A model generated the notes under the pieces. The model was not told where the DNA came from. It saw only the letters and a list, made by a program, of their open reading frames with translations, and made no database searches. Position numbers and translations under genes: made by a program. 32,409 nucleotides of DNA, taken from NCBI GenBank assembly GCA_029555025.1, contig JAKPTZ010000027.1, positions 1-32,409 on the forward strand, read 5' to 3'. Shown here in pieces: positions 8,809-26,051 of the stretch. This DNA is from Deltaproteobacteria bacterium (GTDB lineage Bacteria; Myxococcota_A; UBA9042; DTJE01). Numbering within the stretch: position 1 is the stretch's first letter; every line of letters begins with the position of its first letter.

Positions 8809-9066
8809 CTACTTGAAGGTGGTTTCCTTGGCGGTTTCGAGCATCGGCTCGACAAAGGACTTCTTCAGGCGCAGCAGGCGGTCAAACTTGACCTTCTGGC
8901 GGGCGTCCGTGAAAAGGGTTGTTGGCTTCTTGATATCACCGTCGATCAACTGGTCGGAAAAGTCATAGAACTTCGACTTGACGCCGCCGGAAGTCTGGGC
9001 GATTGCAACAGGCATCACGCCGGCGAACACGGCCGCGAAAACGATCGCGAATACGAGCTTCTTCAT
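8809..9066 (-). CDS. Tiny secreted protein, last gene of the Glt/Nfs-like cluster
   Basis: An 85-residue protein with a clean signal peptide (MKKLVFAIVF..., cleavage likely after AIA at residue 23). The mature part is only about 62 residues: a segment FYDFSDQLIDGDIKKPTT followed by a basic helix (DARQKVKFDRLLRLKKSF). No cysteine, repeat or membrane segment follows. A strong GGGGGTAA RBS precedes the ATG. It lies 66 bases downstream of the TPR lipoprotein gene and is the last gene on this strand before the palindrome array. I do not recognise it firmly. Its position after the GltE/NfsE-like gene suggests a small periplasmic partner, possibly comparable to GltF/NfsF, but that is inference from order alone. 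Confidence 0.75.
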   Translation of the reverse strand: MKKLVFAIVFAAVFAGVMPVAIAQTSGGVKSKFYDFSDQLIDGDIKKPTTLFTDARQKVKFDRLLRLKKSFVEPMLETAKETTFK

Positions 9067-9132
9067 CTTACGTTACCCCCAAAATCCGGGTCAGCGCGTC
9101 AATGATACGCACGCGACCCGATTCGATCAACT

Positions 9133-10746
9133 TCACTCCGCCGCAACCGGCGCTTCGGCCGCTTCAGGAGCCGGTTCAACCGCCGGAGCCGCTTCAGGTG
9201 CTGGTGCAGGCGCGGGTTCAACGGCCGGGGCCGGTTCAACGGCCGGGGCCGCTTCGGGTGCCGGGGCCGGTTCAACCGCCGGAGCCGCTTCGGGTGCCGG
9301 AGCCGGGGCCGGTTCAACGGCCGGGGCCGCTTCAGGTGCCGGAGCCGGGGCCGGTTCAACGGCCGGGGCCGCTTCAGGTGCCGGAGCCGGTTCAACCGCC
9401 GGAGCCGCTTCGGGAGCCGGTTCAACCGCCGGGGCCACAGCGCCATCGGCCGGTGGCGTCTCTTCTGGCATCATCGGCTCTTCAGGCGGCATCAACATTC
9501 CGCCGTTCTTGATCATGTCCTGAAGAACGGGGATACGTCCGCGGATCGGATCGTTTTCCGGGGCCTGGGCGACTTCAAGATACTTCTGGTAGTACTCGAC
9601 CGCCTTTTCCAGACTGTTCAGCTTCGTCTCGTACATCTTGGCGACGCGCAGGTACAGATCCGTATTCTTCGGTGCAATCCTCATCCCCTTCAGCCAGGTA
9701 TCAACGGCCTTCTGGGGATCAAGCAGCCCGGCATAGCACGAGCCAAGGCCGATCATCGCTTCAACGCTGTCCGGAACCATCTTCAACGCTTCCTCGTACA
9801 TCTCACGGGCCGCATTGTAGTGAAGATAATTCAGATAAATGGCCGCGACATTCATGCGCGCTTCAAAGTTATTCGGATCAATCTGCAGCGCCTTTTCAAA
9901 CGACGTCACGCCCATCGGGGTGTTCCCCATGCGAAGGTACGTGATCCCAAGGTTCGTCAACGCCTCGATTGAGTTCGGGTCGAAACGAAGCGCCTTCTGC
10001 TCGAAAACCCACTTCGCGATCTTCAGGTTGCCTGCCTGCAGATTGATCAGCCCGCGGGTGTTCAGCGCGACGACGTCCTCGGGCGCCTTCAGGAGAACCT
10101 TCTGGACATAGCTTTCGGCCGTCTTGGTGTCGCCCTTGAAAAGCCAGTAAAGTGCCAGCGAGTTGTTGGCCTGAATGTTTTCCGCGTCCTCGGCGATGAC
10201 TTCGTCGAATATCTGCTTTGCCGCAACTTCCTGGCGATCAGCCTCGGCGAAATTCCCGAAGTCACGCGCCTTCTTGGCCAGGCCAAGATAGACCTTTCCG
10301 ATGTACGCGCGTGCATCAAGCTTGCGATCCGTCTTGTCGGCGGCCTGCTGATACAGCCTTACGGCATCGTCGGTCTTTCTCTGGCGCTCGTAGATCTGGG
10401 CCAGGTTGATGTACGCCTCGGCGAAACCTGGATCAATCTGGATTGCCTTCTGGAGAGACTCAACCGCGCGGTCGTACATCGGAGGGAACTCGTGCAGGAA
10501 CAGAACTCCCTGCCCGAACGCATCCTGGGCGTCTTCCTTGACGCCTTCGACGTACTTGAACTCACGCTGGATGATCTCGCGATAAGACAGATCTTCCTTC
10601 GTCTCGACCTTGGCCGGGGCCGGTTTCGCGGCCGCCTGCACCTGGGTCTTGTCGCCGTCCTTCCTGGTCTGCTTCGAGACGGGACCGCAAGCCGCAATAC
10701 CGGCACACACGACGCCGGCGGTGATCATTACGAAAACCTTCCTCAT
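9133..10746 (-). CDS. TPR lipoprotein, GltE/NfsE (AglT)-like
   Basis: A 537-residue outer-membrane-type lipoprotein. MRKVFVMITAGVVCAGIAAC places the lipid cysteine at residue 20. From about residue 60 to 400 there is a chain of tetratricopeptide repeats with the usual A-x-x-x-x-x-x-L/I-x-P spacing (for example AVESLQKAIQIDPGFAEAY, SIEALTNLGITYLRMGNTPM, SVEAMIGLGSCYAG). The last 100 residues are a Pro-Ala-Glu repeat tail, likely extended. In Myxococcus, GltE (AglT) and its paralog NfsE are TPR lipoproteins of this length, in the gliding and spore-coat machines. The ATG overlaps the stop of the upstream TPR gene by four bases (ATGA) and has GAGGAGG before it, so translation is coupled. Another TPR lipoprotein role cannot be excluded. 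Confidence 0.7.
   Translation of the reverse strand: MRKVFVMITAGVVCAGIAACGPVSKQTRKDGDKTQVQAAAKPAPAKVETKEDLSYREIIQREFKYVEGVKEDAQDAFGQGVLFLHEFPPMYDRAVESLQKAIQIDPGFAEAYINLAQIYERQRKTDDAVRLYQQAADKTDRKLDARAYIGKVYLGLAKKARDFGNFAEADRQEVAAKQIFDEVIAEDAENIQANNSLALYWLFKGDTKTAESYVQKVLLKAPEDVVALNTRGLINLQAGNLKIAKWVFEQKALRFDPNSIEALTNLGITYLRMGNTPMGVTSFEKALQIDPNNFEARMNVAAIYLNYLHYNAAREMYEEALKMVPDSVEAMIGLGSCYAGLLDPQKAVDTWLKGMRIAPKNTDLYLRVAKMYETKLNSLEKAVEYYQKYLEVAQAPENDPIRGRIPVLQDMIKNGGMLMPPEEPMMPEETPPADGAVAPAVEPAPEAAPAVEPAPAPEAAPAVEPAPAPAPEAAPAVEPAPAPAPEAAPAVEPAPAPEAAPAVEPAPAVEPAPAPAPEAAPAVEPAPEAAEAPVAAE
9136..9435 (-). repeat. In-frame Pro-Ala-Glu coding repeats
   Basis: Residues 438-537 of the TPR lipoprotein repeat the 12-residue unit APAPEAAPAVEP (36 bases), with 14-residue (42-base) and shorter variants, about seven copies. 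The copies are near-identical at DNA level, alternating GGCCGGGGCC and GGTTCAAC blocks. This suggests recent expansion by slippage or unequal recombination. Confidence 0.9.
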
Positions 10747-13700
10747 TTCGCGGCCTCCTCGATGTACTTGATTTCGACGTCGCCGCGCTTCAGTGACTTG
10801 ATGAAGCTGGTGGAAGTGACGGAATCCTTGATCCTGTCGGACTTCACCAGTTCATCGCCGGCAACCGGGAACGTATCCTGGTTAACCTTAGCCGCGTATT
10901 CAGCGCAGGACTTGGAGAAGTTGTTATAGACCTTCTTTTCGTGCGCCAGGTTAAGCGCCTTCTCGAACGCGCGCATCGCCTTGGCCTCGACGGGCTCGAC
11001 GATCTGGTCGATGACGCCCTGGTACTCGACGATGTACTCTTCCGGCAGATCCTCCGGAATCGGCAGGTTCAGCAGTTCTTCCTTGAACGTGTAGTACAGC
11101 AGACCGATCTTGAACAGCGCGCCGGCAGACCACGGACCGCTCTTGAAGTCCAGGACTTCGTTGAACGAGCCTTCCGCCTTCTGCTGGGCTTCGGCCTTGT
11201 CGGTCAGCGCCTTCTTCAGCACGGCCGGCTTCAGTGTCGAGGGAATCGGCAGCTTCGCGAAGTCGTCATACAGGTAATCGGAAAGCTCGAACTTGGCCTG
11301 GGCCGCGAAGTTGCGGGCATAGGCCAGCGCCTTCTGGTCGTCGCCAATCGCGTTGAACTGCTTGATCGCCTGGTCGAATGCCTTGACCGCTTCGTTCCGG
11401 CGCTTGGCCTTGTCAATCTTCTTCAGCATCGCGCCGATGCGGGTGTACGCCTCGACGGTCAGATCCGGAGCCTTGTACTTCTTCAGCAGCCACTTCTGGT
11501 GCGCGGCCACGGCCTTGTTGAAATCACCGTTTTCTTCGTGAATCAGGCCGGCCCTGAAGGAAACCCGGGGAGCATCGACATGCGACGGGAAAATCGCGAC
11601 GAACTGATCATAGGACTTGATCGCGCCCGAGTAATCACCGAGCGCCTCGCGAATAAGGCCGGCGTTCTGCAACGCGTCGCCCATATCCTTCTGAAGCTGT
11701 TCCCAGTTGGCCACCTTCTCCGTGTCGGTCGGCTTCTTCTTGTTCTTGAACTGCGTCATGCTCTCGAACGTCTTGGCGGCGTCCTCGAACTCGGTCTGGC
11801 TTTCCTGGATTGAACCGATTGCAAATACCGCCTTCGGGGCAACCTCGGAATCCGGGTACTCCTTAACGACGCGCTTGTAGGTCGCAATCGCCTTGTCAAC
11901 GTTGCGCTGGTCTTCGTAAAGAACGGCGACGTTGTAAAGGGCGGCAGACGCCATGACCTTGTCTGACTTGAATTCGTCATAGACGCGCATCGCTTCCTTG
12001 CCGGCGGCATCAAACCGCTTTTCCATCGACAGGACGCGCGCGTTCTCGGTCATCGCGATGGCGACGATCTTGCGAAGTTCCGATTCCTTCTTAACCGTGA
12101 AGTTGCGGGCCGCGATCAGCTTTCTGGCCCACTCCTCAACCTGCGGCCACCTGTTCAGGCGCTGGTAGCAGTCCAGCAGGGTGAAGACGGCGTATGCGGC
12201 GTACTTCGACGTGCTGTCATAGGCAAACAGTGTCTGAAGACGCTTGACCGCTTCCTCGAACTGTCCATGTTCATAAAGAACGTCGGCGGCCAGGAACATG
12301 ATTTCGGGAATCGCCTCGCCGCGCTTCGGGTTCTTCTTTCTGACTTCCGGATCGGTCAGAAGATCGGTCAGCAGGCTGACGTACTTGTCCGCGGCGGCCA
12401 CGTACGAAGCCTCCAGCGGGTGGAGTTCGGTACGTTCAAAGGTCTTCTTTGCCTTCCTCGGATCGACCTGGTACGTCTCGAGCTTGCCGCTCTTTGCGAA
12501 CTTGCGCAGGCCTTCCTTGTCCATCAGCTCGCCGTAACAGTAGATGACGCCCAGCGCGGCTTCCTCGACGTATTCGCCCTTGGTATCGCGGGCGATAACG
12601 GCGTTGTACTGGTCGGCGGCGGCCTGGTAGTCGGAGAGCTCGGTGTAAAGGATTTCCGCGTAGTAGAAGTTAACGACGTAGGCGCGCTCCCAGTCCTTGA
12701 ACCGGGTCAGGTACAGGCTGTACTTGTCGGATGCCTTTGCATAAAGTTCCTTGGCCAGCCTTGTCTCCTTCTTCTCTTCCGCCTTCTGGGCGCCCATGTG
12801 GTAGAAGTTCGCCATGTAGAAGACGTACTTCTCGACGAGCGTGTCGGCTTCCTTGACCGTGTCCTCGTCCTTCTTGTTGGCGGTTGCCCACGTGCCCCTG
12901 GGATCGAAATAATCGACGACTTCAAGCGTCACCTTGTCCAGGTTCGGCGTGTCGTTCGTGTTCTGGTAAAGCGAAAGGATGATTGTGTAATACTCAACGA
13001 TGTTCTTCGAGGTTCTTTCACGTTCGATAAAGTGACGGAACAGTTCGATCGCCTCGAGAACCTTGTCCTGGCCGACGTAAAGGTCAGCCAGGGCGCGCAT
13101 CTTCACGTACGCCTCGTCTTCCGGCAGAACGCTCTTGAAGTAATCAAGCGCCGTCTCCCATCCGTTCTCGACTTCCGCGAAACAGACGACCAGGTCGTTC
13201 AACGCCTGGTTCCTGAACTCGATGACGCCCTTGCTCTTGCCGGTCGAGACTGCCTTGACGACCATCTTGAAGCCGTCAATCGCCTTTTCCATCTCGCCCA
13301 TGTTGAAGTAAACCCACGACAGCTTGTACTGCGCGTAGTTGTACATGGACGACTTCGGGTACTTGTTCAGGATGGTCTCGTAATTCACCTGGGCGTAATA
13401 CAGCTTGTTCGTTTCGAAATAGAACTCGGCCATGGCCAGGTGTGCCTGCGGCAGCCACTCACTCTGCGGATAATTCTTCACCAGGCGGTCAAGATAATTG
13501 ACGCCCTCCTTCTGCAGGGTGATGTTCTTCTTCGCCTTGCCTTCCTTCATCGCGCCCTTGCCGATGTAAAAAAGCACCTGGTCGTAACGCGGATAATCCG
13601 GGAAGTCCTTCAGGACCTGGCGGTAATACTCCAGCGATACGGTGTAGTCCTCGGTGGGCTCCGGCGGCAGTTCCTTCAGGATGCCCTGATCGTACTGCTC

Positions 13701-14087
13701 GTAGGCCTTGTCCCACTGCTCGCGGGCCTTCATGTACTGGTAGAAAGACTCTTCCCAGTAGGCTTCGGCAAGCATGTGGATGACTTTCGGGGCGCGGGCC
13801 GGATCCTTGCGGTAATCCGGCTTCGCGAGCAGCGCCTTCATGTTGGTGATTTGCTGCTGGCGCATCTGGGAGATCTGCGCCATCTTCTCCTTGACTGCCT
13901 CACCGACCATCAGTTCGGCCTGCTCGAGTGTGAACTTGCCGCCCTGAACCGCCTTTGGAGCGTCAGAAGCGCCTTGTTCCGCAGCCTGGCCTTCCTGGGC
14001 CGCCTCCTGGGCAACCGCCGGCAAACCGACCATCACGACAAAAGTCGTCAGGATCGAAGCGGCGATGGACGCGATGTACCTTTTCAT
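10743..14087 (-). CDS. Large periplasmic TPR protein, GltD/NfsD (AgmU)-like
   Basis: A 1114-residue exported protein. The signal peptide spans residues 1-26 (MKRYIASIAASILTTFVVMV, then GLPAVA|Q). The rest is helical and repeated, with many TPR-type units. Clear ones are LDRLVKNYPQSEWLPQAHLA, YETILNKYPKSSMYNYAQYK, YKRVVKEYPDSEVAPKAVFA and YDQFVAIFPSHVDAPRVSFR, several ending in the YP/FP-S motif typical of TolA-partner and Glt-type repeats. There are no catalytic motifs, so it is a scaffold. AgmU/GltD of Myxococcus, as I recall about 1200 residues, is a periplasmic TPR protein of the gliding complex, and NfsD is its sporulation paralog. Size, export and gene order fit. It is second of a tight trio and overlaps the GltE-like gene by four bases. 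GAGGGA precedes its ATG. Confidence 0.7.
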   Translation of the reverse strand: MKRYIASIAASILTTFVVMVGLPAVAQEAAQEGQAAEQGASDAPKAVQGGKFTLEQAELMVGEAVKEKMAQISQMRQQQITNMKALLAKPDYRKDPARAPKVIHMLAEAYWEESFYQYMKAREQWDKAYEQYDQGILKELPPEPTEDYTVSLEYYRQVLKDFPDYPRYDQVLFYIGKGAMKEGKAKKNITLQKEGVNYLDRLVKNYPQSEWLPQAHLAMAEFYFETNKLYYAQVNYETILNKYPKSSMYNYAQYKLSWVYFNMGEMEKAIDGFKMVVKAVSTGKSKGVIEFRNQALNDLVVCFAEVENGWETALDYFKSVLPEDEAYVKMRALADLYVGQDKVLEAIELFRHFIERERTSKNIVEYYTIILSLYQNTNDTPNLDKVTLEVVDYFDPRGTWATANKKDEDTVKEADTLVEKYVFYMANFYHMGAQKAEEKKETRLAKELYAKASDKYSLYLTRFKDWERAYVVNFYYAEILYTELSDYQAAADQYNAVIARDTKGEYVEEAALGVIYCYGELMDKEGLRKFAKSGKLETYQVDPRKAKKTFERTELHPLEASYVAAADKYVSLLTDLLTDPEVRKKNPKRGEAIPEIMFLAADVLYEHGQFEEAVKRLQTLFAYDSTSKYAAYAVFTLLDCYQRLNRWPQVEEWARKLIAARNFTVKKESELRKIVAIAMTENARVLSMEKRFDAAGKEAMRVYDEFKSDKVMASAALYNVAVLYEDQRNVDKAIATYKRVVKEYPDSEVAPKAVFAIGSIQESQTEFEDAAKTFESMTQFKNKKKPTDTEKVANWEQLQKDMGDALQNAGLIREALGDYSGAIKSYDQFVAIFPSHVDAPRVSFRAGLIHEENGDFNKAVAAHQKWLLKKYKAPDLTVEAYTRIGAMLKKIDKAKRRNEAVKAFDQAIKQFNAIGDDQKALAYARNFAAQAKFELSDYLYDDFAKLPIPSTLKPAVLKKALTDKAEAQQKAEGSFNEVLDFKSGPWSAGALFKIGLLYYTFKEELLNLPIPEDLPEEYIVEYQGVIDQIVEPVEAKAMRAFEKALNLAHEKKVYNNFSKSCAEYAAKVNQDTFPVAGDELVKSDRIKDSVTSTSFIKSLKRGDVEIKYIEEAAK

Positions 14088-14170
14088 TCGTCCCTCATTC
14101 CGTCAAAGATTCAACCGAAAGGCCACTACGGGCCGTTCGACCGCACTGCCACAAAATTCCGGCCGGGCGC

Positions 14171-16063
14171 CTACTCCGAGCACTTGCTCTGGAGCTGGCT
14201 CCGGAAGTACGCGACTTCGTCAAGCCAGTACTCGCCGATGAACGGCCACACTTCGGTGTCGCCGCCGATGACGATCGTGCTGCGGTTCACCGACTGCTGG
14301 ACTGTCTCTTCCTCGGCGCCGCCAAGAACCGCCAGTTCACGGCTGGCCGTATCGATGGCCGCCGCGCTGACGTCAACCTGGATTTCCGTCTGCTGGATCT
14401 GCGCATTCTCGATTGCCGCATCGACTGACTTCAGCACGCGCTGGATTGTGACGCCGCAACGAACGATGTTGTCCTTGCGCAGGATATCGAGACGGGACTG
14501 CATGTCTTCAGCGAACGCACCCAGGGCGCCGGAGTTGCCCTGAATCATCGAGATTTCCTTGTCAATCTGCTTGATCGTCCGGTACAGGTTGTAAAACTCG
14601 ACATCGGACATCACCGGCAGGGTCAGAACCTGGGGCAGGCTCTTGTCGTCCGGCTCGTTAACCGACTTAAGGAAGGCGTCGTAATAGTTTTCCAGGCTCG
14701 CCTGGGCATCCATGAAACGCCGCAGCGGGATCTGGTGCACGACGATTTCCTGATCGAACATGCCAAGAGCCTTTTCCGCCTTGTCGAAATGGCACAGGTC
14801 GCCATAGACGCGCGCTTCCAGGATCCACAGATCCGGCAGGAACGCATCGCGGAAATACGGCGAACGGATGGCATGGAAGGTACCCAGGGCGCGACTGTAG
14901 TCGGCCTTCATCAGATACGTCCAGGCCAGTTCGAAGAACACCGTGCCGGCCCTGGGGCTGTCGGTCGGAACTTTCTTGTAATAGAAGATTGCGGCGTCGA
15001 AATTTTCCGCTTCGTACGCGATTCGGGCCAGCGCCATGTACGCCAGGTCGCGCACGCCGGAATCCTTGAACGCGCCTTCCGCCAGGTTGACGGCGCTCTG
15101 GAAAGATTCAACGGCCGACTTGTACATCTGGTTGCGAACCTGAACAAGGCCCACAAGGTACCTTGCCTTGGCGGCATCCGGACCGGCATCCCCGACCTGG
15201 TTCAGGTGGGTCACCGCGCGTTCAAAATCGCCGATGTCATAGAAATACTGCCCCATGACGTAGTTGAATTCCACCTGGAAGGTCGCGTCGAACGCCACCA
15301 TCGGGAATGTCGTCAGGGTTTCGAGTTCGTGCGGGGTGTAATTGACCCTCTGGCGAAGCACGCGCAGCTTGCGGAACGCTTCCTGGAAGAACGGCCGCTC
15401 TGTTCCCTGCAGAAGTACTTCGACAAGGAGCCTGGCGGCACTCTGGTACAGGCCCGCGTTCGTCAGCGCCGCCGCCATTCCGTACTTGGCGTTATAGACT
15501 TCAATCGAGTCGTCGGCATAGTTCTCTTCCGCCAGGAAGGACTGAAAGAGTTGCAGTGCATTGACCCAGTCGCCCTGGTCGGCGAGTTCAAGGCCCTTGC
15601 GAAGCTTTCCGGAGGCATAGGCCCGGCGACGGGCTTCCTCGGCGGCCTTCATTTCCGCCTCGCGCGCGGCGGCCTGCTCGGCGGCAAAGCGTCGTTCAGC
15701 TTCAATTTCCTCGGGGGTCTTTTCGCGAACGACCGGCGCCGCCGGAACCGCCGCGGCCTGCTGCTGCTGAACCGCGGGGGCCTGCTGGACAGGCTGCGCG
15801 AACCTGGTCGGGGTCTGCATCATGAACTTGATTACCGCATCGGGCACACCGGCCTTGCGAAGCTCGAGAATATCGGAGATTTCCAGCTTGAAAATCGACC
15901 GATCCTTCTCGATCGTCGCGATGATGTCGGCTTCAGGAACCATAAGCTGCGTTGCAAGAACGATTACTTCGTCCTTCGTGATTGCCCCGGCCGGTCCGCT
16001 GACAAGGACAGTTCCGGTAATCACAACGGCAAGCAGCAGCTTTGAAAATGAAAATCGAGTCAT
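14171..16063 (-). CDS. Periplasmic TPR/coiled-coil protein, GltC/NfsC-like
   Basis: A 630-residue protein with a signal peptide cut after GPAGA (residue 27). Residues 28-84 contain a helical module (KDEVIVLATQLMVPEADIIA, then LRKAGVPDAVIKFMMQ) of the kind found near the start of many exported bacterial proteins, ending in the KAGVPDxVI pattern. A Pro/Gln/Ala linker and an Ala/Glu/Arg coiled coil (about residues 110-150) follow. TPR-like repeats then run through to about residue 400 (GDWVNALQLFQSFLAEENY, GDFERAVTHLNQVGD, YKSAVESFQSAVNLA), before a long helical C-terminal region. GltC of Myxococcus is a periplasmic protein of similar size, acting between outer-membrane barrels and the GltD/GltE TPR proteins. 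It lies between the barrel gene and the GltD-like gene, as in nfsA-H. Identification rests on order, size and architecture. Confidence 0.65.
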   Translation of the reverse strand: MTRFSFSKLLLAVVITGTVLVSGPAGAITKDEVIVLATQLMVPEADIIATIEKDRSIFKLEISDILELRKAGVPDAVIKFMMQTPTRFAQPVQQAPAVQQQQAAAVPAAPVVREKTPEEIEAERRFAAEQAAAREAEMKAAEEARRRAYASGKLRKGLELADQGDWVNALQLFQSFLAEENYADDSIEVYNAKYGMAAALTNAGLYQSAARLLVEVLLQGTERPFFQEAFRKLRVLRQRVNYTPHELETLTTFPMVAFDATFQVEFNYVMGQYFYDIGDFERAVTHLNQVGDAGPDAAKARYLVGLVQVRNQMYKSAVESFQSAVNLAEGAFKDSGVRDLAYMALARIAYEAENFDAAIFYYKKVPTDSPRAGTVFFELAWTYLMKADYSRALGTFHAIRSPYFRDAFLPDLWILEARVYGDLCHFDKAEKALGMFDQEIVVHQIPLRRFMDAQASLENYYDAFLKSVNEPDDKSLPQVLTLPVMSDVEFYNLYRTIKQIDKEISMIQGNSGALGAFAEDMQSRLDILRKDNIVRCGVTIQRVLKSVDAAIENAQIQQTEIQVDVSAAAIDTASRELAVLGGAEEETVQQSVNRSTIVIGGDTEVWPFIGEYWLDEVAYFRSQLQSKCSE

Positions 16064-16129
16064 TTTCCCACCGTCAAGTTAAGTTCCGTGCGGCCAGAGA
16101 CCGCAAAATCGCCAACAGCGACCGCATCA

Positions 16130-16891
16130 TCACTTCGGGGCCGGGGTGACGTAAGTCAGGCCGAAGGAAATTTCGGCCAGCGAGCTGACGCCATTGGTCC
16201 ATTCGCCCTTGCTGACGTTCTGGGCGTCAAACCCCGGGGCCTTCGGATAGATGTAATGACGGTAATCGATTCCGACCGCCAGGTAATCCGTGACCCAGAA
16301 CTTGATGAAGGCGCCAAGGTTGGCCATGATGTTGAACGGGATCGCGCCGTCGTACGACCAGCGGGTCTCGAGCACACCCTGCTTGTAAACCTTCGATCCG
16401 ATCACGCCGACGCCGACCAGGAGGCCGGCATCGAACGACGTGATGCGCTTGTTCATGACCTGGAACTTGCCATGGAACGGCGCCCACTTGATGTTGAAAT
16501 CGACGTACCAGTTCATGCGCTCAAGCAGTTCACCACGCTTGATCGCCGAACCGGTGTCACGGACGATGTCATTAAGAAGCTGGGTGCTGGCAGAGGGCGC
16601 GTAGCAGCCGGCAGCCTCGAAGGACAGGGACTCCATGAAGTGATACTCGTAACGAAGTCCGATGGGAACAAACACATGGAAAGGATCGTTGGGAATGACC
16701 CCAAGGAAAATTCCCACTTCGTGCCTGTAGTCCGGCAGGAACTGCTTCTTCTCGATGACGTTCAGTTCCCTTTCCTTTCCCCAGATCTTGTCCAGATTCG
16801 AGTCCAGGTTGGTTTCCTGCGCAAATGCAGGCATCCCCGCAACCAGAACTACGAAGCTGATGATGGTCCGAATTGCCCACCGTCCGTTCAT
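16130..16891 (-). CDS. Outer-membrane beta-barrel protein, GltA/B- or NfsA/B-like
   Basis: A 253-residue outer-membrane protein. The ATG at 16889-16891 is chosen because it opens a standard signal peptide (IRTIISFVVLVAGMPAFA|Q) and has GCGAGGG upstream. The frame extends further upstream only into the terminator region. After a short charged stretch, alternating strands follow: HEVGIFLGVIPNDPF, VPIGLRYEYHFMESLSFEAAG, WYVDFNIKWAPFHGKF, TSFDAGLLVGVGVIG, PFNIMANLGAFIKFWVTDYLAVGIDYRHYIY and a closing SLAEISFGLTYV. This pattern of paired aromatic-rich strands resembles the myxobacterial outer-membrane beta-barrel family (TIGR04565 as I recall) and the GltA/GltB and NfsA/NfsB barrels. It leads the cluster C-D-E. 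Only one barrel gene is present here, where Myxococcus has two. Confidence 0.7.
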   Translation of the reverse strand: MNGRWAIRTIISFVVLVAGMPAFAQETNLDSNLDKIWGKERELNVIEKKQFLPDYRHEVGIFLGVIPNDPFHVFVPIGLRYEYHFMESLSFEAAGCYAPSASTQLLNDIVRDTGSAIKRGELLERMNWYVDFNIKWAPFHGKFQVMNKRITSFDAGLLVGVGVIGSKVYKQGVLETRWSYDGAIPFNIMANLGAFIKFWVTDYLAVGIDYRHYIYPKAPGFDAQNVSKGEWTNGVSSLAEISFGLTYVTPAPK

Positions 16892-16986: not shown

Positions 16987-19476
16987 CTAGCCCGCACTGG
17001 GAATGCACTCGCCGCCCTGACATTTGCCGCCGGTGCAATCCGTGCCGTCGTCCTTGTTCTTATACGTGCAACTTGACTGATTCAACTCGCTGGTCTTGCA
17101 TTCCTTGTCGTTCTTCGGAACGCAAATCCCCTTGCAGCACTTGCCTTCGGCCGAGCATTCGGTCTCCGCCTTGGCCTGGTAGTTGCAGCCCTCGTCCAGA
17201 ACATCTTCCCTGCACTCGTTATCGTTCGGGGGAATGCACTTGCCCCAGCAGCAGCTTCCGCCGGTGCATGGGGACGAGAACGCCATCTCGCCGTAGCTGC
17301 AGACAGCGAATTCGTCGTCGAAGGCCACAGCAAGACACTCGACATCCCTGGCCTGCATCTGGACATTGGAATTGTTCAGATCCTTAACCGTGGAAACCAG
17401 GTCATCGGCAATTGAGCAAAGCGGGAACCACGACAGACAGTCGCTGGCATTCTTCCCTTCGGGCAGCCTGACAGCGCCACGCATGTCGATCTTCTTATCG
17501 ACGACGAAGGCGCTGCTGGCCGACGACGGGAAAACCGAGTCTGTCAGGTCCTCGACGAGCAATGCCCTGATCCGGCCATCAACCGCGACCGAAGCGCCGG
17601 TGACAACGCCGGTACCCTTCTTCGTGCAGTCGCAGGGCGAATCCTTCTCCTGGCAAGTGCCGGGGCTGACCACCGGAGGTTCGTTCGTGTCTTCTTCAGC
17701 CACATCCGCCGGGCCTTCGTCCGCGGAAGGAACGTCCACAACGTTGGTGTCTTCGGCCGGAACGTCGGCTGAAGCATCATCCAATACGTCCGGGGTGTTT
17801 GTATCCACCGCGGTGTCCGGCTCGTCAACGTCCGGCTCATTGGTATCGGTGACGGTCACGTCCTCGATCACATCACCTTCGGCGCGATTGACAACCGGCT
17901 GGAAATCCTGCGTGAAACTCACATTGATCGCCGAGAAGGCCGCCGACAGGTCGTTAACCTTGACCGCCATCCTCCACACGCCGGACATGGCATTGCGGAA
18001 CCTGGTAATCGGCGTCAGCAGTGCCTGCTCAAGCGGATGCTGGCCGGCCCATGCCGCCAGGTTGTCCTTGTTCTCCTCACGGCTGGCCGGAAGATCGTTC
18101 GAATTGATCCAAGTGTAATGACCGCCGGTCAGACAGGCGATTTCCTGCTGAGCCGGATCGATCATCGGATAACCCTTCGACTGCATCTGTATAAAGGTAA
18201 TGTGAACCGGAATCTGGTCAATCGGCTTCGGATTGCCATTCTGGTCGTAAACGTCGTCATGGATGTGAGCCAGGAACGCCTTGTAGGACGTATCGGAACA
18301 TGCCGCGCTCTGGTCGCCGAGTTCCCACTCCTTGGTGCTGACGCGGAAATATCGCACGTACGGCAGGAAGTCCGGCGAATCCTGGGCGCAGGTGTCCGGA
18401 CCGTCGGTTATCACGACGATGTGCTTGACCGGCGTCGTTTCGGTCTTCATGAAGTCATAGACGTCCTTGACCGCCATCCACAGCGGCGTACGACCCCTGG
18501 GGGTATTCTGCAGATCGGAAAACACCGGTGAATTGAGAATATCCCGATTGATTCCGAAGCAGTCGGCACGATTCAAGCTCTCGTCGTCGTTCGCGGACGT
18601 GCACAGAATCCTGGCGCCGTCGGCGCTCACGTCCTCGCCGAACTTGAAGATACCGGCGCGATCGCCCTTGTTGAGAAGGCCGAACAGCCGCTGGGCGGCC
18701 GTGCGCCGGAAGGCGTTGTAATCGGTTGCCCTGTCGGCGAAACCTTCCGAGGAAACGTTCGCCGGGGCGAGGTTTGCCGTCTTCAGGCCGGGGCTGTACT
18801 CAACCTGGGTCAACGGCTCAACATAGCCAATCATCGAACCGGACTGATCGATCATTACTGCAACGGAAAGATTCGACTCTTCGGGCTTGCCGCGGAACGG
18901 GCCGCTGGTGAAATTGCTCTGGTAATTCAGAGTGTCCGGCCGAGCATCCTTGATGGTCTGCTTTGTCGAACAAGCCTTCTCGAAGCCCGCCAGCGGATAC
19001 GGGGACAGACAGTCAATATCCACGCTGAAGTGGCTTGGCCGCAGCAGGCGATAGCCGCTCGGGGCACAGGTCTGGCCCTGCTTGTCGGGATCCGTGCAAG
19101 GAATGCTGTCAACGCCGTCAACGCCAAGGGTCAGGTACTCCTCGTCCGGCGTCTTGATAAGCTCGCCCGGGCGGATCGACAGATCGCGATCATCAGCCTC
19201 GCCGGCCGTGGTCTGGCTTCCGGGGCTGAGGATGTTGAAAGCCAGTTCAAGGGCGTTCACCCCCGCTCCGTCATCGCCGACGCAGTGACGCTGGGGCGTT
19301 CCGCCGGTCAGTTCAACAGGGACGGCCGAAACGAACTCGACGTTCGACGCAACATAGGTGGAACGGTAGTAGGTGAAATCGTACTGGCATCCACCGATTG
19401 CCGCCAGCACCAGCAAAACAGCCGATGCCGGGAAAAGGTACCCGCCTGCGCGCCGCAGAATTTCGAAACGCATCAT
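16987..19476 (-). CDS. VWA-domain surface lipoprotein with Cys-rich tail (CglB-like)
   Basis: An 829-residue lipoprotein. The signal ends at LAAIGGC with the lipid cysteine at residue 30. A von Willebrand A domain spans about residues 203-450. Its metal-ion adhesion site is complete: D210-Q-S212-G-S214 in AVMIDQSGSMIGY, T330 in RGRTPLWMAVKDV and D358 in IVVITDGPDTC. Residues about 535-605 form an acidic Asp/Thr/Pro linker. The C-terminal region carries three related cysteine modules (SCCWGKCIPPNDNEC, KCCKGICVPKNDKEC, KCQGGECIP). CglB of Myxococcus, the gliding adhesin, is an outer-membrane lipoprotein with a VWA domain and many cysteines, but only about half this length. The position directly upstream of the Glt/Nfs-like cluster supports a link. 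A paralog lies at 31315-32409. GGGGAG precedes the start. Confidence 0.78.
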   Translation of the reverse strand: MMRFEILRRAGGYLFPASAVLLVLAAIGGCQYDFTYYRSTYVASNVEFVSAVPVELTGGTPQRHCVGDDGAGVNALELAFNILSPGSQTTAGEADDRDLSIRPGELIKTPDEEYLTLGVDGVDSIPCTDPDKQGQTCAPSGYRLLRPSHFSVDIDCLSPYPLAGFEKACSTKQTIKDARPDTLNYQSNFTSGPFRGKPEESNLSVAVMIDQSGSMIGYVEPLTQVEYSPGLKTANLAPANVSSEGFADRATDYNAFRRTAAQRLFGLLNKGDRAGIFKFGEDVSADGARILCTSANDDESLNRADCFGINRDILNSPVFSDLQNTPRGRTPLWMAVKDVYDFMKTETTPVKHIVVITDGPDTCAQDSPDFLPYVRYFRVSTKEWELGDQSAACSDTSYKAFLAHIHDDVYDQNGNPKPIDQIPVHITFIQMQSKGYPMIDPAQQEIACLTGGHYTWINSNDLPASREENKDNLAAWAGQHPLEQALLTPITRFRNAMSGVWRMAVKVNDLSAAFSAINVSFTQDFQPVVNRAEGDVIEDVTVTDTNEPDVDEPDTAVDTNTPDVLDDASADVPAEDTNVVDVPSADEGPADVAEEDTNEPPVVSPGTCQEKDSPCDCTKKGTGVVTGASVAVDGRIRALLVEDLTDSVFPSSASSAFVVDKKIDMRGAVRLPEGKNASDCLSWFPLCSIADDLVSTVKDLNNSNVQMQARDVECLAVAFDDEFAVCSYGEMAFSSPCTGGSCCWGKCIPPNDNECREDVLDEGCNYQAKAETECSAEGKCCKGICVPKNDKECKTSELNQSSCTYKNKDDGTDCTGGKCQGGECIPSAG

Positions 19477-19695: not shown

Positions 19696-21945
19696 TCAGA
19701 ACCAACTGCCCGAAACGGTCATGTCATCGGCATCGATAACCATCATTCGACCGTTCGATGAATCCAGGGTGAAAAGTGTATCGCCCGCCACGATGACGCC
19801 GGTCGGCAGGCCGCCGATGTCGTTCTGGAACGGCAGGCGACCAGTTTCCATGGCAAAGGAAATGATCGTGTCTCGAACGGGCGGAATAACGACCGGCTTA
19901 TAATTCGAATCGATTCGACAGCCCGGGACGATATTGAATTCGAACATCGGATTCCTGAACCTGGCGGCATCCCAGTCGATGTACATGTCCCCGCCGCGAA
20001 TGACGGGACAGCTTTCGACCACGACGCTTGCCGCTTCAGGCATCGACGTGATTGCCCGTCCGGTGAATATCGGATCGGCGCCAGGGCGACGGACGCATGC
20101 GAAGGACTCGTCGGTCATCCAGGGATGAAGGAAGCCGGTTCGGGATCCACTGACGATCCACTGACCCGACGCCCTTACCCGCCAGTTGACATCCTTGTAC
20201 TGACAACCTTCGGGAATGCTTATCTGCGCGCCGCTCGCCGTCAGCGGGCCAAGCCGCAACTGACCGCCTGAAACCCGCACGAGCCGGAATTCCATCGTGG
20301 AACCGGCCAGTTCACCGCATTCGGTGTCCCATGGAAGATCGATTTCCACGGTATCGCCGACGTAGTCACCGTCGGCCGCCTGAACCCCGAGATCACAGAA
20401 TCCGGCATACGAAGTGGTGGCAAGCGTCCAGGTACTGAACCACCCCTCGCCGGTGTCGTACATGAGCCTTCCGCAGCCGCCCTCTGCACCCGGAATCACG
20501 CCCTCGTACGTTGCAGACCAGACTTCGGGAAGTTCGGCCTCGATATCGCCGTTGAACGTAATGCCGTAATACACGTACTTCTCGTCATCGACCTTCGGGA
20601 TCACGACCTGCGTCCCGCCGAACGAGGGAAGATCCGTCCTGGTAAGGATGGCGCGCTCAAGTTCAGCCCCCTGCCAGGTCACGACCGGCATGTACGCCGA
20701 ACTCTCTACCTCGAGCAGATCGTTTTCGGCCCTGTGCGGCCACGGAACGGTATCGGATGCCTCTGGCAATACCCGTACGATCTGGCCGCCATAAAGCCAG
20801 GCCAGTGCGCGAAGGCCGTCTTCGGTCTGGACGAACGTGACGCCGAGAGCCGGCGAATCCATCCTTATGTCCGCATAGCCAAGCCAGCCCGCCAGCATGT
20901 TGGCTATATTCCAGGGCTGATCCGGAATGGTGGTATCGGTCATGTCGAGACCTGGAACCGGGATGTGCGTATCGACCCTGGCGAGATCGGCGTCAAAAAC
21001 GGCAATGCCGGAGGGTACGGCCATCGGGACGTATATGAAGTCGCCGCCGGGCATCACGGCGGGCCGTCCCGACACGTAACCTGACGCCACCGACTGCGCC
21101 TGGCCATCGCCACAACCGGCGGCCACGCCTTCGGATCGGTACTTCGGCACAATCCGGCTGTCGTTGACAACAGGAACCGTGGTGACTGATGTCGCGCCCG
21201 GAACAAGCCCGTCGAGCGCGACAAGATGATCCCAGTGAAGGTACTCAGGCTGGGGAAGATCGGCCGAAACCACCATCACCCTTCCCTCGCCCGTCGATAT
21301 CCATCTGGCACGCCCCGGGATCTCCGCAACCAGCCCCATTGAAACGAACGAACCTTCAAGCGACCGGAGATCACCGGCCGGGGGCTCAAGACGCCACACC
21401 TGGGATCCTGACGTACACGACAGAAGTGCCGCAATTGCATACCCGGCAGGCGCTTCGGCGTCCTCCATTACCGTCATGTCCGAAAGGGGACACGGGAGAT
21501 CAACCGAAGAAATCGCCCCGGCCATGGAAAAGAAATCACCGTCGATAAGGGTCAGGGCCGGCTTCGATTCAACGCCGCCATTTGAAGCGACGAAAACGTA
21601 CCTTGAGTCCGGCGACGGTTCGATCGCAACGGCGTCCTGGCGAACCGGCATCGGGGAATATCCCGGAAGAACCGGGTCGAAATCGAAATGATCACCATCT
21701 GGGAGCGAGCTTACGAAGACGCCGTCCAGGTCGCCGTCCAGGATCCATGAAACGGCCAGACCATCGGTTGCTCCGCAATCCTTGACGGGCATGAAACTGC
21801 GGTCGGCGGAAACGCACGTCACGGCGAAATCGACCGGTCGTGACAGGATGGAGCCGCTGTATGCCTTTTCGTCCGCGCAGGCCACCAGGCCGACAAGACC
21901 TGCCAGCGTCGCCAGAACGATCAACGCAGAAAAAGACCTTTTCAA
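19696..21945 (-). CDS. Large lipoprotein, probable beta-propeller
   Basis: A 749-residue lipoprotein of unknown role. The start is TTG 21945, supported by GGAGG six bases upstream. MKRSFSALIVLATLAGLVGL leads to LVAC with the lipid cysteine at residue 23. The mature protein is rich in short beta strands: repeated x-Y-V-F/V-A-x-N/D turns (DSRYVFVASNGGVESKPALT, GGDFIYVPMAVPSGIAVFDA, TGVIVAGDTLFTLDSSNGRM). These resemble YVTN/NHL-type propeller blades around a central domain with paired cysteines (CGDGQAQ, GFCDLG, DTECGE, EGCQYKD). It resembles myxobacterial lipoproteins with no assigned function. It follows the next lipoprotein gene by 18 bases, so the two are cotranscribed. Surface or periplasmic binding is plausible but unproven. 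Confidence 0.7.
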   Translation of the reverse strand: MKRSFSALIVLATLAGLVGLVACADEKAYSGSILSRPVDFAVTCVSADRSFMPVKDCGATDGLAVSWILDGDLDGVFVSSLPDGDHFDFDPVLPGYSPMPVRQDAVAIEPSPDSRYVFVASNGGVESKPALTLIDGDFFSMAGAISSVDLPCPLSDMTVMEDAEAPAGYAIAALLSCTSGSQVWRLEPPAGDLRSLEGSFVSMGLVAEIPGRARWISTGEGRVMVVSADLPQPEYLHWDHLVALDGLVPGATSVTTVPVVNDSRIVPKYRSEGVAAGCGDGQAQSVASGYVSGRPAVMPGGDFIYVPMAVPSGIAVFDADLARVDTHIPVPGLDMTDTTIPDQPWNIANMLAGWLGYADIRMDSPALGVTFVQTEDGLRALAWLYGGQIVRVLPEASDTVPWPHRAENDLLEVESSAYMPVVTWQGAELERAILTRTDLPSFGGTQVVIPKVDDEKYVYYGITFNGDIEAELPEVWSATYEGVIPGAEGGCGRLMYDTGEGWFSTWTLATTSYAGFCDLGVQAADGDYVGDTVEIDLPWDTECGELAGSTMEFRLVRVSGGQLRLGPLTASGAQISIPEGCQYKDVNWRVRASGQWIVSGSRTGFLHPWMTDESFACVRRPGADPIFTGRAITSMPEAASVVVESCPVIRGGDMYIDWDAARFRNPMFEFNIVPGCRIDSNYKPVVIPPVRDTIISFAMETGRLPFQNDIGGLPTGVIVAGDTLFTLDSSNGRMMVIDADDMTVSGSWF

Positions 21946-21963
21946 CTCCAGCCTCCAGCCGGC

Positions 21964-23313
21964 TCAGTCCCGGGGCTCGACGATACCGACCTTATGATAG
22001 TCGGGCCTTAAGGAATCGACGCCGAACCAGCTTACTGTCGAGTCCTCGAAGTTCGCGACAAAGGCGCGCCCGTCGGCAATCGCGATACCGGAAGGCGCCG
22101 CGCCGACAAAGACCTTTGAAACCACCGCCATCGAAGCGGGATCGATTACATACACAAAATCCAGCGAGGACTCGGTCACATAGACGACTTCCTTGCCGTT
22201 GTCGTTAAAAATCGCCACCCCGGACGGGGTACCATCAAGTGGAATCAAACCACGGTAACGTAAGCCGCCACCATCGAGAATTTCGAAAATTGTCAGCGAT
22301 GATGGGGAACGGAACGCCGCGTAAAGAAGTCTTCCGTCCCCGGAACGAACCATCTCGCGGAAGTAATCGCCGGAAGAACCGAGCAGGTCGGCCGACACGG
22401 AAGGCATCGGGATCTCGCGGACATTCCCGAAGCGATCGAAACGCAGCTTGATGATGTCGATCAGGTTGACGCTGCGATTGGTAATCCACAATACGCGCGT
22501 GAACTCATCGACGACGTACTCCATGATCGAATGGGCGCCCTCGGTGATTGGAAGCGTGGCTCGCCATTGCAGGGAACCATCGGCGGCGACCGTAAAAACG
22601 GCCACGGCGCTTCCAACGATTCCCGACACATAGACGGGATTCACAACATCGCCGTCGAAGGTCCGCATCTGATTTCCAACGGAAATGCCGTAAGCATCGT
22701 TGGCCCAGAAAGTCGTGCCTTCCTCATCGACGAAATCGTAATCCCTCAAATCGATGACGTGATCCCCACGACATCGATGAAAAGCGTATGCGTCGCCGTC
22801 AGCGCCAGGCTCGGCCTTTTCGCGGCTTTCCTGTGCAAGGCACTCCAGCTCGGGAAGGTTCGATGCGTCACGGACGGAATCGACCAGATCGAGCTGGTCG
22901 CCGTCACGGATCGGGACCCAGATCCTGGTCGTGCCGTCTCCAAGCAGGGACACCGCGGCATCACCGCCGAAAGGCCCAATCTCCACGGCCGCCTTCGAAA
23001 CAGGAACCGGGGCGCCGCCGTCCTCCGGCCTGACCTGTATCGGAATCAGCGTCCCGCCGGTGTATCGGGAATCGAAGTTGGTCGAGACGACATATACGAA
23101 ATCACCCGCGGGGTCTGCGACGATGGCGCCAGGCCAGGCGAACTGGCCCGGATCCGGGGTTATTTGCCGGTAATTGTCGATGCACGCCGCATGAAAGATG
23201 ACGGAAATGGAAAGAAGCAAGGCCACGGACCGGGCCGCGCCGCCGACGAACGACGCCGGAAGCGGCCGGTGCGCGCCGGGATTCAAGTTAGCGTGGCCCG
23301 ATCCGTATGTCAC
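21964..23313 (-). CDS. Lipoprotein with YVTN-type beta-propeller repeats
   Basis: A 449-residue protein. The start is GTG 23313, because GGAAGG lies six bases upstream, just past the ppdK stop. The frame is open further upstream inside ppdK but without an RBS. After a long basic n-region, SVALLLSISVIFHAAC gives a lipid cysteine at residue 44. Blades are visible as ADPAGDFVYVVSTN, GDGRLLYAAFRSPSSLTIFE, PSGVAIFNDNGKEVVYVTES, LDFVYVIDPASMAVVSKVFV and PSGIAIADGRAFVANFEDST, the PSGIAI-x-D/N pattern being typical of YVTN propellers. Such proteins act as surface or periplasmic scaffolds, and no enzyme motif is seen. It lies only 16 bases after ppdK and 18 before the next lipoprotein gene. Confidence 0.72.
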   Translation of the reverse strand: MTYGSGHANLNPGAHRPLPASFVGGAARSVALLLSISVIFHAACIDNYRQITPDPGQFAWPGAIVADPAGDFVYVVSTNFDSRYTGGTLIPIQVRPEDGGAPVPVSKAAVEIGPFGGDAAVSLLGDGTTRIWVPIRDGDQLDLVDSVRDASNLPELECLAQESREKAEPGADGDAYAFHRCRGDHVIDLRDYDFVDEEGTTFWANDAYGISVGNQMRTFDGDVVNPVYVSGIVGSAVAVFTVAADGSLQWRATLPITEGAHSIMEYVVDEFTRVLWITNRSVNLIDIIKLRFDRFGNVREIPMPSVSADLLGSSGDYFREMVRSGDGRLLYAAFRSPSSLTIFEILDGGGLRYRGLIPLDGTPSGVAIFNDNGKEVVYVTESSLDFVYVIDPASMAVVSKVFVGAAPSGIAIADGRAFVANFEDSTVSWFGVDSLRPDYHKVGIVEPRD

Positions 23314-23329
23314 CTTGCACCTTCCATTG

Positions 23330-26047
23330 CTAGTTGCCCTTCCTGGCGGCGATATTCGCCTGAGCCGCCGCGACGCGGGCGACCGGAACGCGGAACGGGC
23401 TGCAACTGACATAGTTCAGACCCGCCTGGTCGCAAAGGGTCACCGAATCCGGATCGCCGCCGTGTTCGCCGCAGATACCGCACTTCAGATCCGTGCGGGT
23501 CGTGCGACCACCGTTAACGCCCAGCTTCATCAGCTCGAAAATCCCGTCGTCAAGCGTGGCGAAGGGGTCGTGCTTCAGGATGCCGTTTGCGATGTAGATC
23601 GGCATGAACTTGGCGTAGTCGTCACGCGACATGCCGAAGCCCATCTGGGTCAGGTCGTTGGTTCCGAAGCTGAAGAATTCGGCGACCTCGGCGATCTGGG
23701 CCGACGTAACCGCGGCTCGTGGAACCTCGATCATCGTGCCGACCAGGTACTTGACGGTGATGCCCTTCTCGGCGAACACCTCGGTGGCGGTCTTGCGGAT
23801 GATCTGCTCCTGGACCTTCAGTTCGTTGACATGGCCGACCAGCGGAACCATGACTTCCGGGTTGACTTCCAGGCCTTCCTTCGCGACGTCGCAGGCGGCC
23901 TCGAAAATCGCGCGGGCCTGCATCTCCGTGATTTCCGGGTACGTGTTGCCCAGGCGGCAGCCACGGTGACCCAGCATCGGGTTCAGTTCATGCAGGTCTT
24001 CCAGGCGCTCCTGAATTTTGGAAATCGGGGTGCCGGTCTTTGCGCTGAAATCCTTCTGGTTCTTTTCGTCGCCGGGCAGGAATTCATGCAGCGGCGGATC
24101 CAGCAGGCGGATGGTGACCGGATAGCCCTTCATCGCCTTGAAGATTCCATAGAAGTCCTCGCGCTGGTACGGCAGCAGTTCCGCAAGCGCCGCGCGACGC
24201 TCGGGTTCCGTCTCGGCCATGATCATCTTGCGCATGGACGTGATGCGGTCGCCTTCAAAGAACATGTGTTCGGTCCGGCACAGGCCGATGCCCTTCGCGC
24301 CGAACTGCATGGCGCGGGTTGCGTCAAGCGGGTTGTCGGCGTTGGTGCGAACGGACATGCGGGTGAACTTGTCGGCGATATCCATCAGACGCGCGAACTT
24401 GCGATAGTTCGGGGCGTCTTCCGGCGCCAGGGTCTTGTCCAGAAGAACCTGGATGACCTCGGACGGCGCGGTCTCGATCTTGCCAAGGTAAACCGTGCCG
24501 GTCGATCCGTCGATGCTGATCCAGTCGCCTTCCTTGACGATGTGATCGCCAATCTTCATCTGGCGGTTCCTGTAATCGACTTCAATGTCGCTGCAGCCGG
24601 CGACGCAGACCTTACCACGCTGACGGGCGACCAGGGCCGCGTGTGACGTCATGCCGCCGCGCTGGGTCAGGATGCCTTCGGCCGTTTCCATTCCCTTGAT
24701 GTCTTCGGGGGATGTCTCGATACGAACCAGGATTGCCTTGTCGTTCCACTTCGCGACCTGGGCCTGAATCTCGTCGCTGAAGAACGCGACGCGGCCGGAA
24801 GCGGCACCCGGGCCGGCCGGGAGTCCCTTTGCAACAAGGCGCCCTTCGGCCTCGGCTGCCTTGACGGCCTTCGAGTTGAAAATCGGGCGCAGCAGGAACA
24901 TGACCTGGCCGGCCTCGATGCGCGTGATAGCGGTTTCCTCGTCGATCATGCCTTCGTTGACCATGTCGATGGCGATGTTGACCGCCGCAAGGCCGGTGCG
25001 CTTTCCGGACCGGCACTGCAGGATGTACAGCTTGCCCTTCTCAATCGTGAATTCCAGATCCTGCATGTCGCGGTAATGGTTTTCCAACCTGGTGCGAACC
25101 TGGCAAAGCTCTTCGTACGCATGCGGCATGACCTTGGCCATTTCCGCGATCTTCAGCGGAGTTCTGATGCCGGCGACAACGTCTTCACCCTGGGCGTTCA
25201 TCAGGAATTCGCCGTAAAACACGTTTTCGCCGGTCGCGGCGTCACGCGTGAAGGCGACGCCGGTGCCGCAGTCGTTGCCCATGTTCCCGAACACCATGGT
25301 CTGGACGTTGACTGCGGTGCCCCAGTCTTCGGGAATGCGGTAAATGCGGCGGTATTCAATGGCCCTGTCGTTCATCCAGGAATCAAAGACCGCGTTGATC
25401 GCCAGGGTAAGCTGTTCACGGGGATCGGTCGGAAAGTCGCGGCCGGTGCGATCGCGGACGACCTGCTTTTCAAGCCTGACAACCTCTTCCAGTTCGGCTG
25501 CGTCAAGTTCGGTATCGAGCTTCTTGCCCGCCTTGTGCTTGACTGATTCCAGAGCGGACTCGAAAGGATCGTGCTCGCCCTTCTTGCCCTTGATACCAAG
25601 GACGACGTCGCCGAACATCTTGATGAAGCGACGATAGCTGTCCATCGCGAAACGACGGTTGCCGGTCGAGTTGGCAAGGGTCTCGACGGTCGTATCGTTC
25701 AGACCAAGGTTGAGGATGGTGTCCATCATGCCGGGCATGGAAGCGCGGGCACCGGATCGAACCGACACCAGCAGCGGATTGGCCGTGTCACCCAGCTTCT
25801 TGCCGTTGACCTTTTCAAGCCACTCGATGGCGGCATCGACTTCTTCCTTCAGGCCTGGCGCCCAGGTATTGCCGTTCTTGAAGTAATGGACGCACGTGCC
25901 CGTCGTGATTGTGAATCCCGGGGGAACGGCCAGGCCGATCCTGCACATTTCGGCCAGGTTCGCGCCCTTGCCGCCCAGGGTATTCTTCATGTCCTTGTCG
26001 CCTTCGACGAAATCCTTTGAGAACCGGAAGACCATCTTGTCTGCCAT
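23330..26047 (-). CDS. ppdK: Pyruvate, phosphate dikinase
   Basis: Interconverts pyruvate, ATP and phosphate with phosphoenolpyruvate, AMP and pyrophosphate in the cytoplasm. The 905-residue length fits. The N-terminal nucleotide-binding domain opens with KNTLGGKGANLAEM and VPPGFTITTG and includes SVRSGARASMPGMMDT. The central swivelling domain carries the phospho-histidine H469 in QRGGMTSHAALVARQRGK. The C-terminal PEP/pyruvate barrel has GIGLCRTEHMFF, LGHRGCRLG, SFGTNDLTQMGFG and the catalytic cysteine region CGICGEHGGDP. The start MADKMVF at 26047 is chosen because GAGG precedes it and it matches the usual family N-terminus. It follows glyS by 4 bases, so it is in the glyQS operon, an arrangement I also recall from other former Deltaproteobacteria. 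Confidence 0.97.
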   Translation of the reverse strand: MADKMVFRFSKDFVEGDKDMKNTLGGKGANLAEMCRIGLAVPPGFTITTGTCVHYFKNGNTWAPGLKEEVDAAIEWLEKVNGKKLGDTANPLLVSVRSGARASMPGMMDTILNLGLNDTTVETLANSTGNRRFAMDSYRRFIKMFGDVVLGIKGKKGEHDPFESALESVKHKAGKKLDTELDAAELEEVVRLEKQVVRDRTGRDFPTDPREQLTLAINAVFDSWMNDRAIEYRRIYRIPEDWGTAVNVQTMVFGNMGNDCGTGVAFTRDAATGENVFYGEFLMNAQGEDVVAGIRTPLKIAEMAKVMPHAYEELCQVRTRLENHYRDMQDLEFTIEKGKLYILQCRSGKRTGLAAVNIAIDMVNEGMIDEETAITRIEAGQVMFLLRPIFNSKAVKAAEAEGRLVAKGLPAGPGAASGRVAFFSDEIQAQVAKWNDKAILVRIETSPEDIKGMETAEGILTQRGGMTSHAALVARQRGKVCVAGCSDIEVDYRNRQMKIGDHIVKEGDWISIDGSTGTVYLGKIETAPSEVIQVLLDKTLAPEDAPNYRKFARLMDIADKFTRMSVRTNADNPLDATRAMQFGAKGIGLCRTEHMFFEGDRITSMRKMIMAETEPERRAALAELLPYQREDFYGIFKAMKGYPVTIRLLDPPLHEFLPGDEKNQKDFSAKTGTPISKIQERLEDLHELNPMLGHRGCRLGNTYPEITEMQARAIFEAACDVAKEGLEVNPEVMVPLVGHVNELKVQEQIIRKTATEVFAEKGITVKYLVGTMIEVPRAAVTSAQIAEVAEFFSFGTNDLTQMGFGMSRDDYAKFMPIYIANGILKHDPFATLDDGIFELMKLGVNGGRTTRTDLKCGICGEHGGDPDSVTLCDQAGLNYVSCSPFRVPVARVAAAQANIAARKGN

Positions 26048-26051
26048 TGCG

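Follow-up and report, generated by a model that had tools for sequence, protein, structure and literature searches.

A Glt/Nfs-like gene unit linked to a vWA lipoprotein in a deltaproteobacterial genome

The analyzed stretch of DNA (32,409 nucleotides, hereafter the window) spans contig C94 in full. The draft genome to which it belongs (3.49 Mb, 158 contigs, 97.6% complete) was searched by family and by stretches. Five genes encoding exported proteins are found in a row on the minus strand at positions 8809-16891 (Table 1), exactly as in the original prediction. The left limit of the cluster had been placed correctly, but the right one falls one gene short, the vWA lipoprotein gene next to the barrel gene having been omitted. 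gltD and gltE overlap by 4 bases, and the remaining gaps among the five genes measure 66-83 bases. The barrel ORF opens upstream at a TTG (17038), and an ATG is located ahead of the signal peptide at 16891. Two beta-propeller-like lipoproteins (19696-23412, minus strand) are constant neighbors of the unit in the window's family only. The 749-aa lipoprotein was modeled with modest confidence (pLDDT 69), and its Foldseek matches are only beta-propeller-like.

Table 1. Genes of the unit and its neighbors in the window
Feature	Position	Strand	Evidence or remarks
GltF/CglF, 85 aa, secreted, signal peptide	8809-9066	-	NF033764 gliding_CglF; hhalign to C81 GltF
GltE, 537 aa, TPR lipoprotein, Pro/Ala-rich tail	9133-10746	-	Lipobox IAAC; NF033758; hhalign
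GltD, 1114 aa, periplasmic TPR scaffold	10743-14087	-	Signal peptide, TPR; hhalign
GltC, 630 aa, periplasmic TPR protein	14171-16063	-	Signal peptide; NF033756
Outer-membrane beta-barrel, resembling GltA/GltB in type of family and location	16130-16891	-	TIGR04565; signal peptide; place between the vWA gene and gltC conserved
Candidate surface adhesin, an 829-aa vWA/MIDAS lipoprotein; its gene opens the class-wide unit	16987-19476	-	Lipobox IGGC; MIDAS; fold; synteny
Beta-rich lipoprotein, 749 aa	19696-21945	-	Lipobox VAC; family-specific neighbor of the unit
Beta-propeller lipoprotein, start codon uncertain	21964-23412	-	Pfam Lactonase/NHL, NCBIfam beta_rpt_yvtn; family-level synteny
PPDK	23330-26173		Upstream of the two beta-rich lipoproteins

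GltC is recognized by the NCBIfam model NF033756 (gliding_GltC; E 9e-49, the next best match being a generic TPR model at 4e-12) with 166.7 bits, below the equivalog cut-off of 450 bits. The tiny secreted protein of the original prediction is present, and can now be named GltF, as residues 26-81 of its 85 fit the CglF/GltF model NF033764 (gliding_CglF; E 1e-9, 38 bits versus a cut-off of 90). In single-sequence searches GltE matches NF033758 (gliding_GltE; E 1e-19), with generic TPR models scoring higher, and GltD matches generic models only, the curated GltD model not being among the matches. Because the best scores of both are those of generic TPR, YbgF and BamD models, neither is distinguishable from generic TPR proteins by this type of search. 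Profiles made from relatives were compared with a second Glt cluster that the genome carries on contig C81, in which GltD and GltE are fused in a 1421-aa protein. The matches are colinear. By hhalign, GltD aligns to residues 103-1048 of the fusion (100% probability over 908 columns) and GltE to residues 1089-1373 (99.8% over 285 columns); GltC and GltF align to their C81 counterparts with 100% and 96.9% probability, respectively. The barrel fits TIGR04565 (outer-membrane beta-barrel; E 1.9e-23) above cut-off. Comparison to solved structures retrieved generic TPR relatives only for GltC, and no credible match for GltF.

A generic TPR scaffold (BamD, YbgF, PrsT) was ruled out on the basis of the GltC and GltF models, the colinear profile alignment and synteny. 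The Glt/Nfs-like identity originally proposed is upheld by the GltC and GltF models, although below equivalog cut-offs, and by the colinear alignment of GltD and GltE to the second Glt cluster; the same alignment answers the suggestion that the proteins may belong with BamD- or YfgM-type families. Since all Glt matches fall below the strict equivalog cut-offs of NCBI, the proteins are to be regarded as distant relatives or paralogs, and their job may differ. Divergence of this degree is normal for the family, as GltC and NfsC of M. xanthus are only 19% identical (PMC4488436). From their sequences, the components can be assigned with strong confidence to the outer-membrane and periplasmic half of a putative Glt/Nfs-type trans-envelope complex.

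Two paralogous forms of GltC occur in the window's order, and GltC was found in each of the 14 genomes. Wherever contigs allow, the window's family (f1) features the invariant order propeller - 749-aa lipoprotein - vWA - barrel - C - D - E - F, and the sister family (f2) the order vWA - barrel - C - D - E - F. Of the 52 genomes of the window's class, 47 encode a member of the vWA family. At the class level the vWA gene lies directly upstream of the barrel gene in 14 of 17 loci, and gltC comes next where the locus reaches that far. Among the longer loci, the full order vWA-barrel(-barrel)-C-D-E-F was found in four further families (f3, f4, f7, f10), and up to the contig end in f8. The six-gene order is shared by at least six families of the class, and is looser in Bradymonadia. 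In these, and in some other Myxococcota, the organization is lipoprotein - barrel(s) - C - D - E - F - GltJ. The window's unit has one TIGR04565 barrel; two are found in Bradymonadia and in family f10. The gene following gltF in Bradymonadia is gltJ (E 1e-39 and 5e-35), which ties this type of cluster to an inner-membrane Glt partner. The arrangement is not fortuitous, because the order recurs in every family relative with an intact contig and in other families of the class. Mis-assembly or contamination were ruled out, the same neighborhood being found in many independent genomes.

In the GltC tree, the form encoded in the window groups with that of Bradymonadia, apart from the C81 form, which groups with a canonical GltC above the NCBI cut-off and with Bdellovibrio GltC. 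Deep splits have moderate support (SH-aLRT 85-86), and several branches are long. With GltC model matches in 314 of 373 Myxococcota genomes, systems of the Glt type are in themselves common across the phylum.

As pointed out in the original prediction, aglRQS, gltG and gltJ are missing from the window; all were found on other contigs of the same genome, in line with the earlier guess that the complex may be energized from elsewhere. Contig C145 encodes a 589-aa GltG (E 5e-40) followed by AglR, AglQ and AglS, that is, one MotA/ExbB-type and two ExbD/TolR-type genes in a row. Relatives within the order have the same four-gene locus, unlinked from both glt clusters. GltJ is encoded on C153; the match is weak (NF033761, E 6e-13), and the order zinc ribbon, GYF, TonB-like tail is visible. 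The paralogous cluster on C81 is organized as gltC-gltD::gltE-gltF-gltG-TPR, includes no motor, and encodes a GltG of its own (E 3e-75). The fused GltD and GltE form a single ORF (L019:11471-15736), and the fusion recurs across the order. In another locus (L106:1296-4400) two tandem GltG-like ORFs are located upstream of a C81-type gltC. Some relatives (L178, L179, L180) host a third, complete C-D-E-aglR-Q-S-gltG cluster beside genes resembling Wza/Wzc-type polysaccharide export genes; no such cluster was found in the window's genome. MotA/ExbB genes on C23, C148 and C61 were discarded as candidate motors, being weak AglR matches (28-54 bits), and C61 looks like Tol-Pal. A myxo_SS_tail match on C3 does not correspond to any clear full-length Glt protein. 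In this draft assembly, where absences are not absolute, one AglR-like match at E<=1e-20 and two GltC copies were counted, and motor sharing is the simplest reading. AglR of M. xanthus binds GltG as well as NfsG, and the motor there changes from one complex to the other (PMC3858216). The two Glt complexes are probably served by one motor, as are Glt and Nfs in Myxococcus.

The vWA lipoprotein carries the lipobox IGGC. In 12 homologs the cysteine C30 and the MIDAS residues D210-x-S212-x-S214 and D358 are invariant; the MIDAS is degenerate in the Lujinxingia homolog. Pfam VWA_2 matches 4 of 16 family members, and the window protein itself has no Pfam match in a single-sequence search. The AlphaFold core (pLDDT 80-97) retrieves by Foldseek significant matches that are largely VWA domains, including those of the adhesins PilB (S. 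sanguinis), RrgA, GBS104 and Mfa5, and of the sporozoite protein TRAP. The protein is a probable surface adhesin, and lipobox and gene company suggest that it is located at the outer membrane. The M. xanthus vWA adhesin CglB is loaded in the Glt complex of the outer membrane and co-purifies with it (PMC12288465, PMC13104615); five outer-membrane Glt proteins were recovered together with CglB (PMC12288465). The architecture (a vWA domain with MIDAS on a lipoprotein) and the Glt partnership match CglB; the likeness is one of architecture, and no CglB model matched the family in the NCBIfam scan. In the literature searched, the scope of which did not include the main CglB paper, no report of a vWA lipoprotein within a glt operon was found. 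A second vWA lipoprotein copy, 49% identical over 172 aa to the first, is located at 31315-32409 on the minus strand; it runs off the right contig end and is not followed by a barrel gene or gltC.

The unit plausibly, though by no means certainly, encodes that half of an Agl-Glt/Nfs-type force transducer which lies in the outer membrane and periplasm; the transducer would display, move or anchor the vWA adhesin and operate without the MglA/MglB switch. The lipid-anchored vWA protein would be loaded on or through a barrel-GltC complex at the outer membrane. GltD, GltE and GltF would link this complex across the periplasm to the TonB-like tail of inner-membrane GltG, or GltJ, which would in turn be moved by the proton-driven AglRQS motor. 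The motor, encoded with GltG on another contig, would probably energize the paralogous Glt complex too. Most likely, the system would use force to display, move or anchor the adhesin on surfaces or prey, and no MglA/MglB polarity switch would take part in the process. Several points weigh against this explanation. The window components score below equivalog cut-offs as distant paralogs and may do a different job; the unit has one barrel, whereas GltA and GltB of M. xanthus need each other; the MIDAS is degenerate in Lujinxingia; and in a draft assembly absences are only relative.

That the unit belongs to a true gliding machine of the M. xanthus type, with the vWA protein as focal adhesin, is unlikely. 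The potential-glider markers of Luciano et al. (AglRQS, GltC, D, E, F and G, and a GltA/B-like barrel; PMC3169522) all have a counterpart in the genome, which encodes GltJ and the vWA lipoprotein as well. According to the same authors, however, the core alone is insufficient for motility (PMC3169522). Moreover, profile models detected no MglB (Robl_LC7) gene with an adjacent small Arf-like GTPase gene (MglA) either in the window's genome or in six relatives of its family. The genome has one weak Robl_LC7 match, with an internal stop, and its Arf matches are IF-2 and ObgE. With these models, Robl_LC7 genes next to small Arf-like ones were retrieved from several other Myxococcota, and a Robl_LC7 match from Lujinxingia. 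Regulated gliding in the style of Myxococcus is therefore unlikely. Bradymonadia, which host a related cluster, have been described as gliding or weakly gliding (PMC7188933), but their movement was later ascribed to type IV pili (PMC11509652); as the reports conflict, these bacteria do not settle the function.

Two paralogous complexes with one motor mirror Glt and Nfs (PMC3858216), and would also suit a polymer-wrapping or coat-building machine that moves exported polysaccharide along the cell surface. The third cluster of some relatives, adjoining genes that resemble polysaccharide export genes, points the same way, but it was not found in the window's genome; in the families examined no polysaccharide genes are found near the unit, whose constant companion is the vWA lipoprotein, and an Nfs-like job is quite improbable. 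Even less credit can be given to a static, non-energized scaffold of generic TPR proteins, involved in envelope tethering or outer-membrane assembly. It would account for the generic best scores of GltD and GltE and for the lack of an adjacent motor, but not for the GltC and GltF matches, the colinearity with a cluster that includes GltG, or gltJ directly following gltF in Bradymonadia.

Ever since Luciano et al. 2011, the role of Agl-Glt core machines outside gliding and sporulation has been a standing question. In these uncultured bacteria, where no gliding switch is detectable, an operon found across the class combines the transducer with one constant surface protein, the vWA lipoprotein, and so provides a concrete candidate cargo. 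The linkage suggests an old association of the CglB-type adhesin with the outer-membrane Glt complex, an association known in Myxococcus from biochemistry only. The unit may even represent a distinct, ancient Agl-Glt branch, a motor-driven, non-gliding adhesin system with the adhesin hard-wired in the operon, one motor for two complexes and no MglAB, possibly illustrating a pre-gliding state; this broader view is tentative, and rated as somewhat less than an even chance.

In M. xanthus cglB lies away from the glt genes. These are organized as gltK-B-A-C and gltD-E-F-G-H-I-J (PMC3169522), and GltA, GltB and GltC form an outer-membrane/periplasmic subcomplex (PMC4488436). The window shares with this system the barrel-C and D-E-F orders, the GltC and GltF profile matches, GltG, GltJ and AglRQS elsewhere in the genome, and a vWA lipoprotein that probably acts as partner, like CglB in Myxococcus. 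The relation to Glt, originally drawn from sizes, export signals and a gltB-C-D-E order, is upheld, but the order itself is not the one found, as the window joins both M. xanthus clusters, A-C and D-F, in one operon. It differs further in having one barrel rather than two, in including the vWA gene in the operon, in the failure to detect MglAB, and in a GltC falling in a separate clade. The Nfs spore-coat complex (nfsA-H) of M. xanthus similarly has barrel, C, D and E genes in one operon, and a motor provided in trans and common to a paralogous complex, as is probably the case in the window's genome; the window unit in contrast lacks an NfsG gene, has one barrel, adds the vWA protein, and is not linked to polysaccharide export. 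The group B core of Luciano et al. 2011 (Gammaproteobacteria, Geobacter, Fibrobacter) also comprises GltC, D, E and G and AglR, Q and S, but in one cluster without GltA/B and GltF, whereas here the genes occupy two or more separate loci and include those for a barrel, GltF and the vWA protein. The C81-type cluster of the same genome has colinear paralogs of C, D, E and F, but features no barrel or vWA gene, has GltD fused to GltE, and carries its own GltG.
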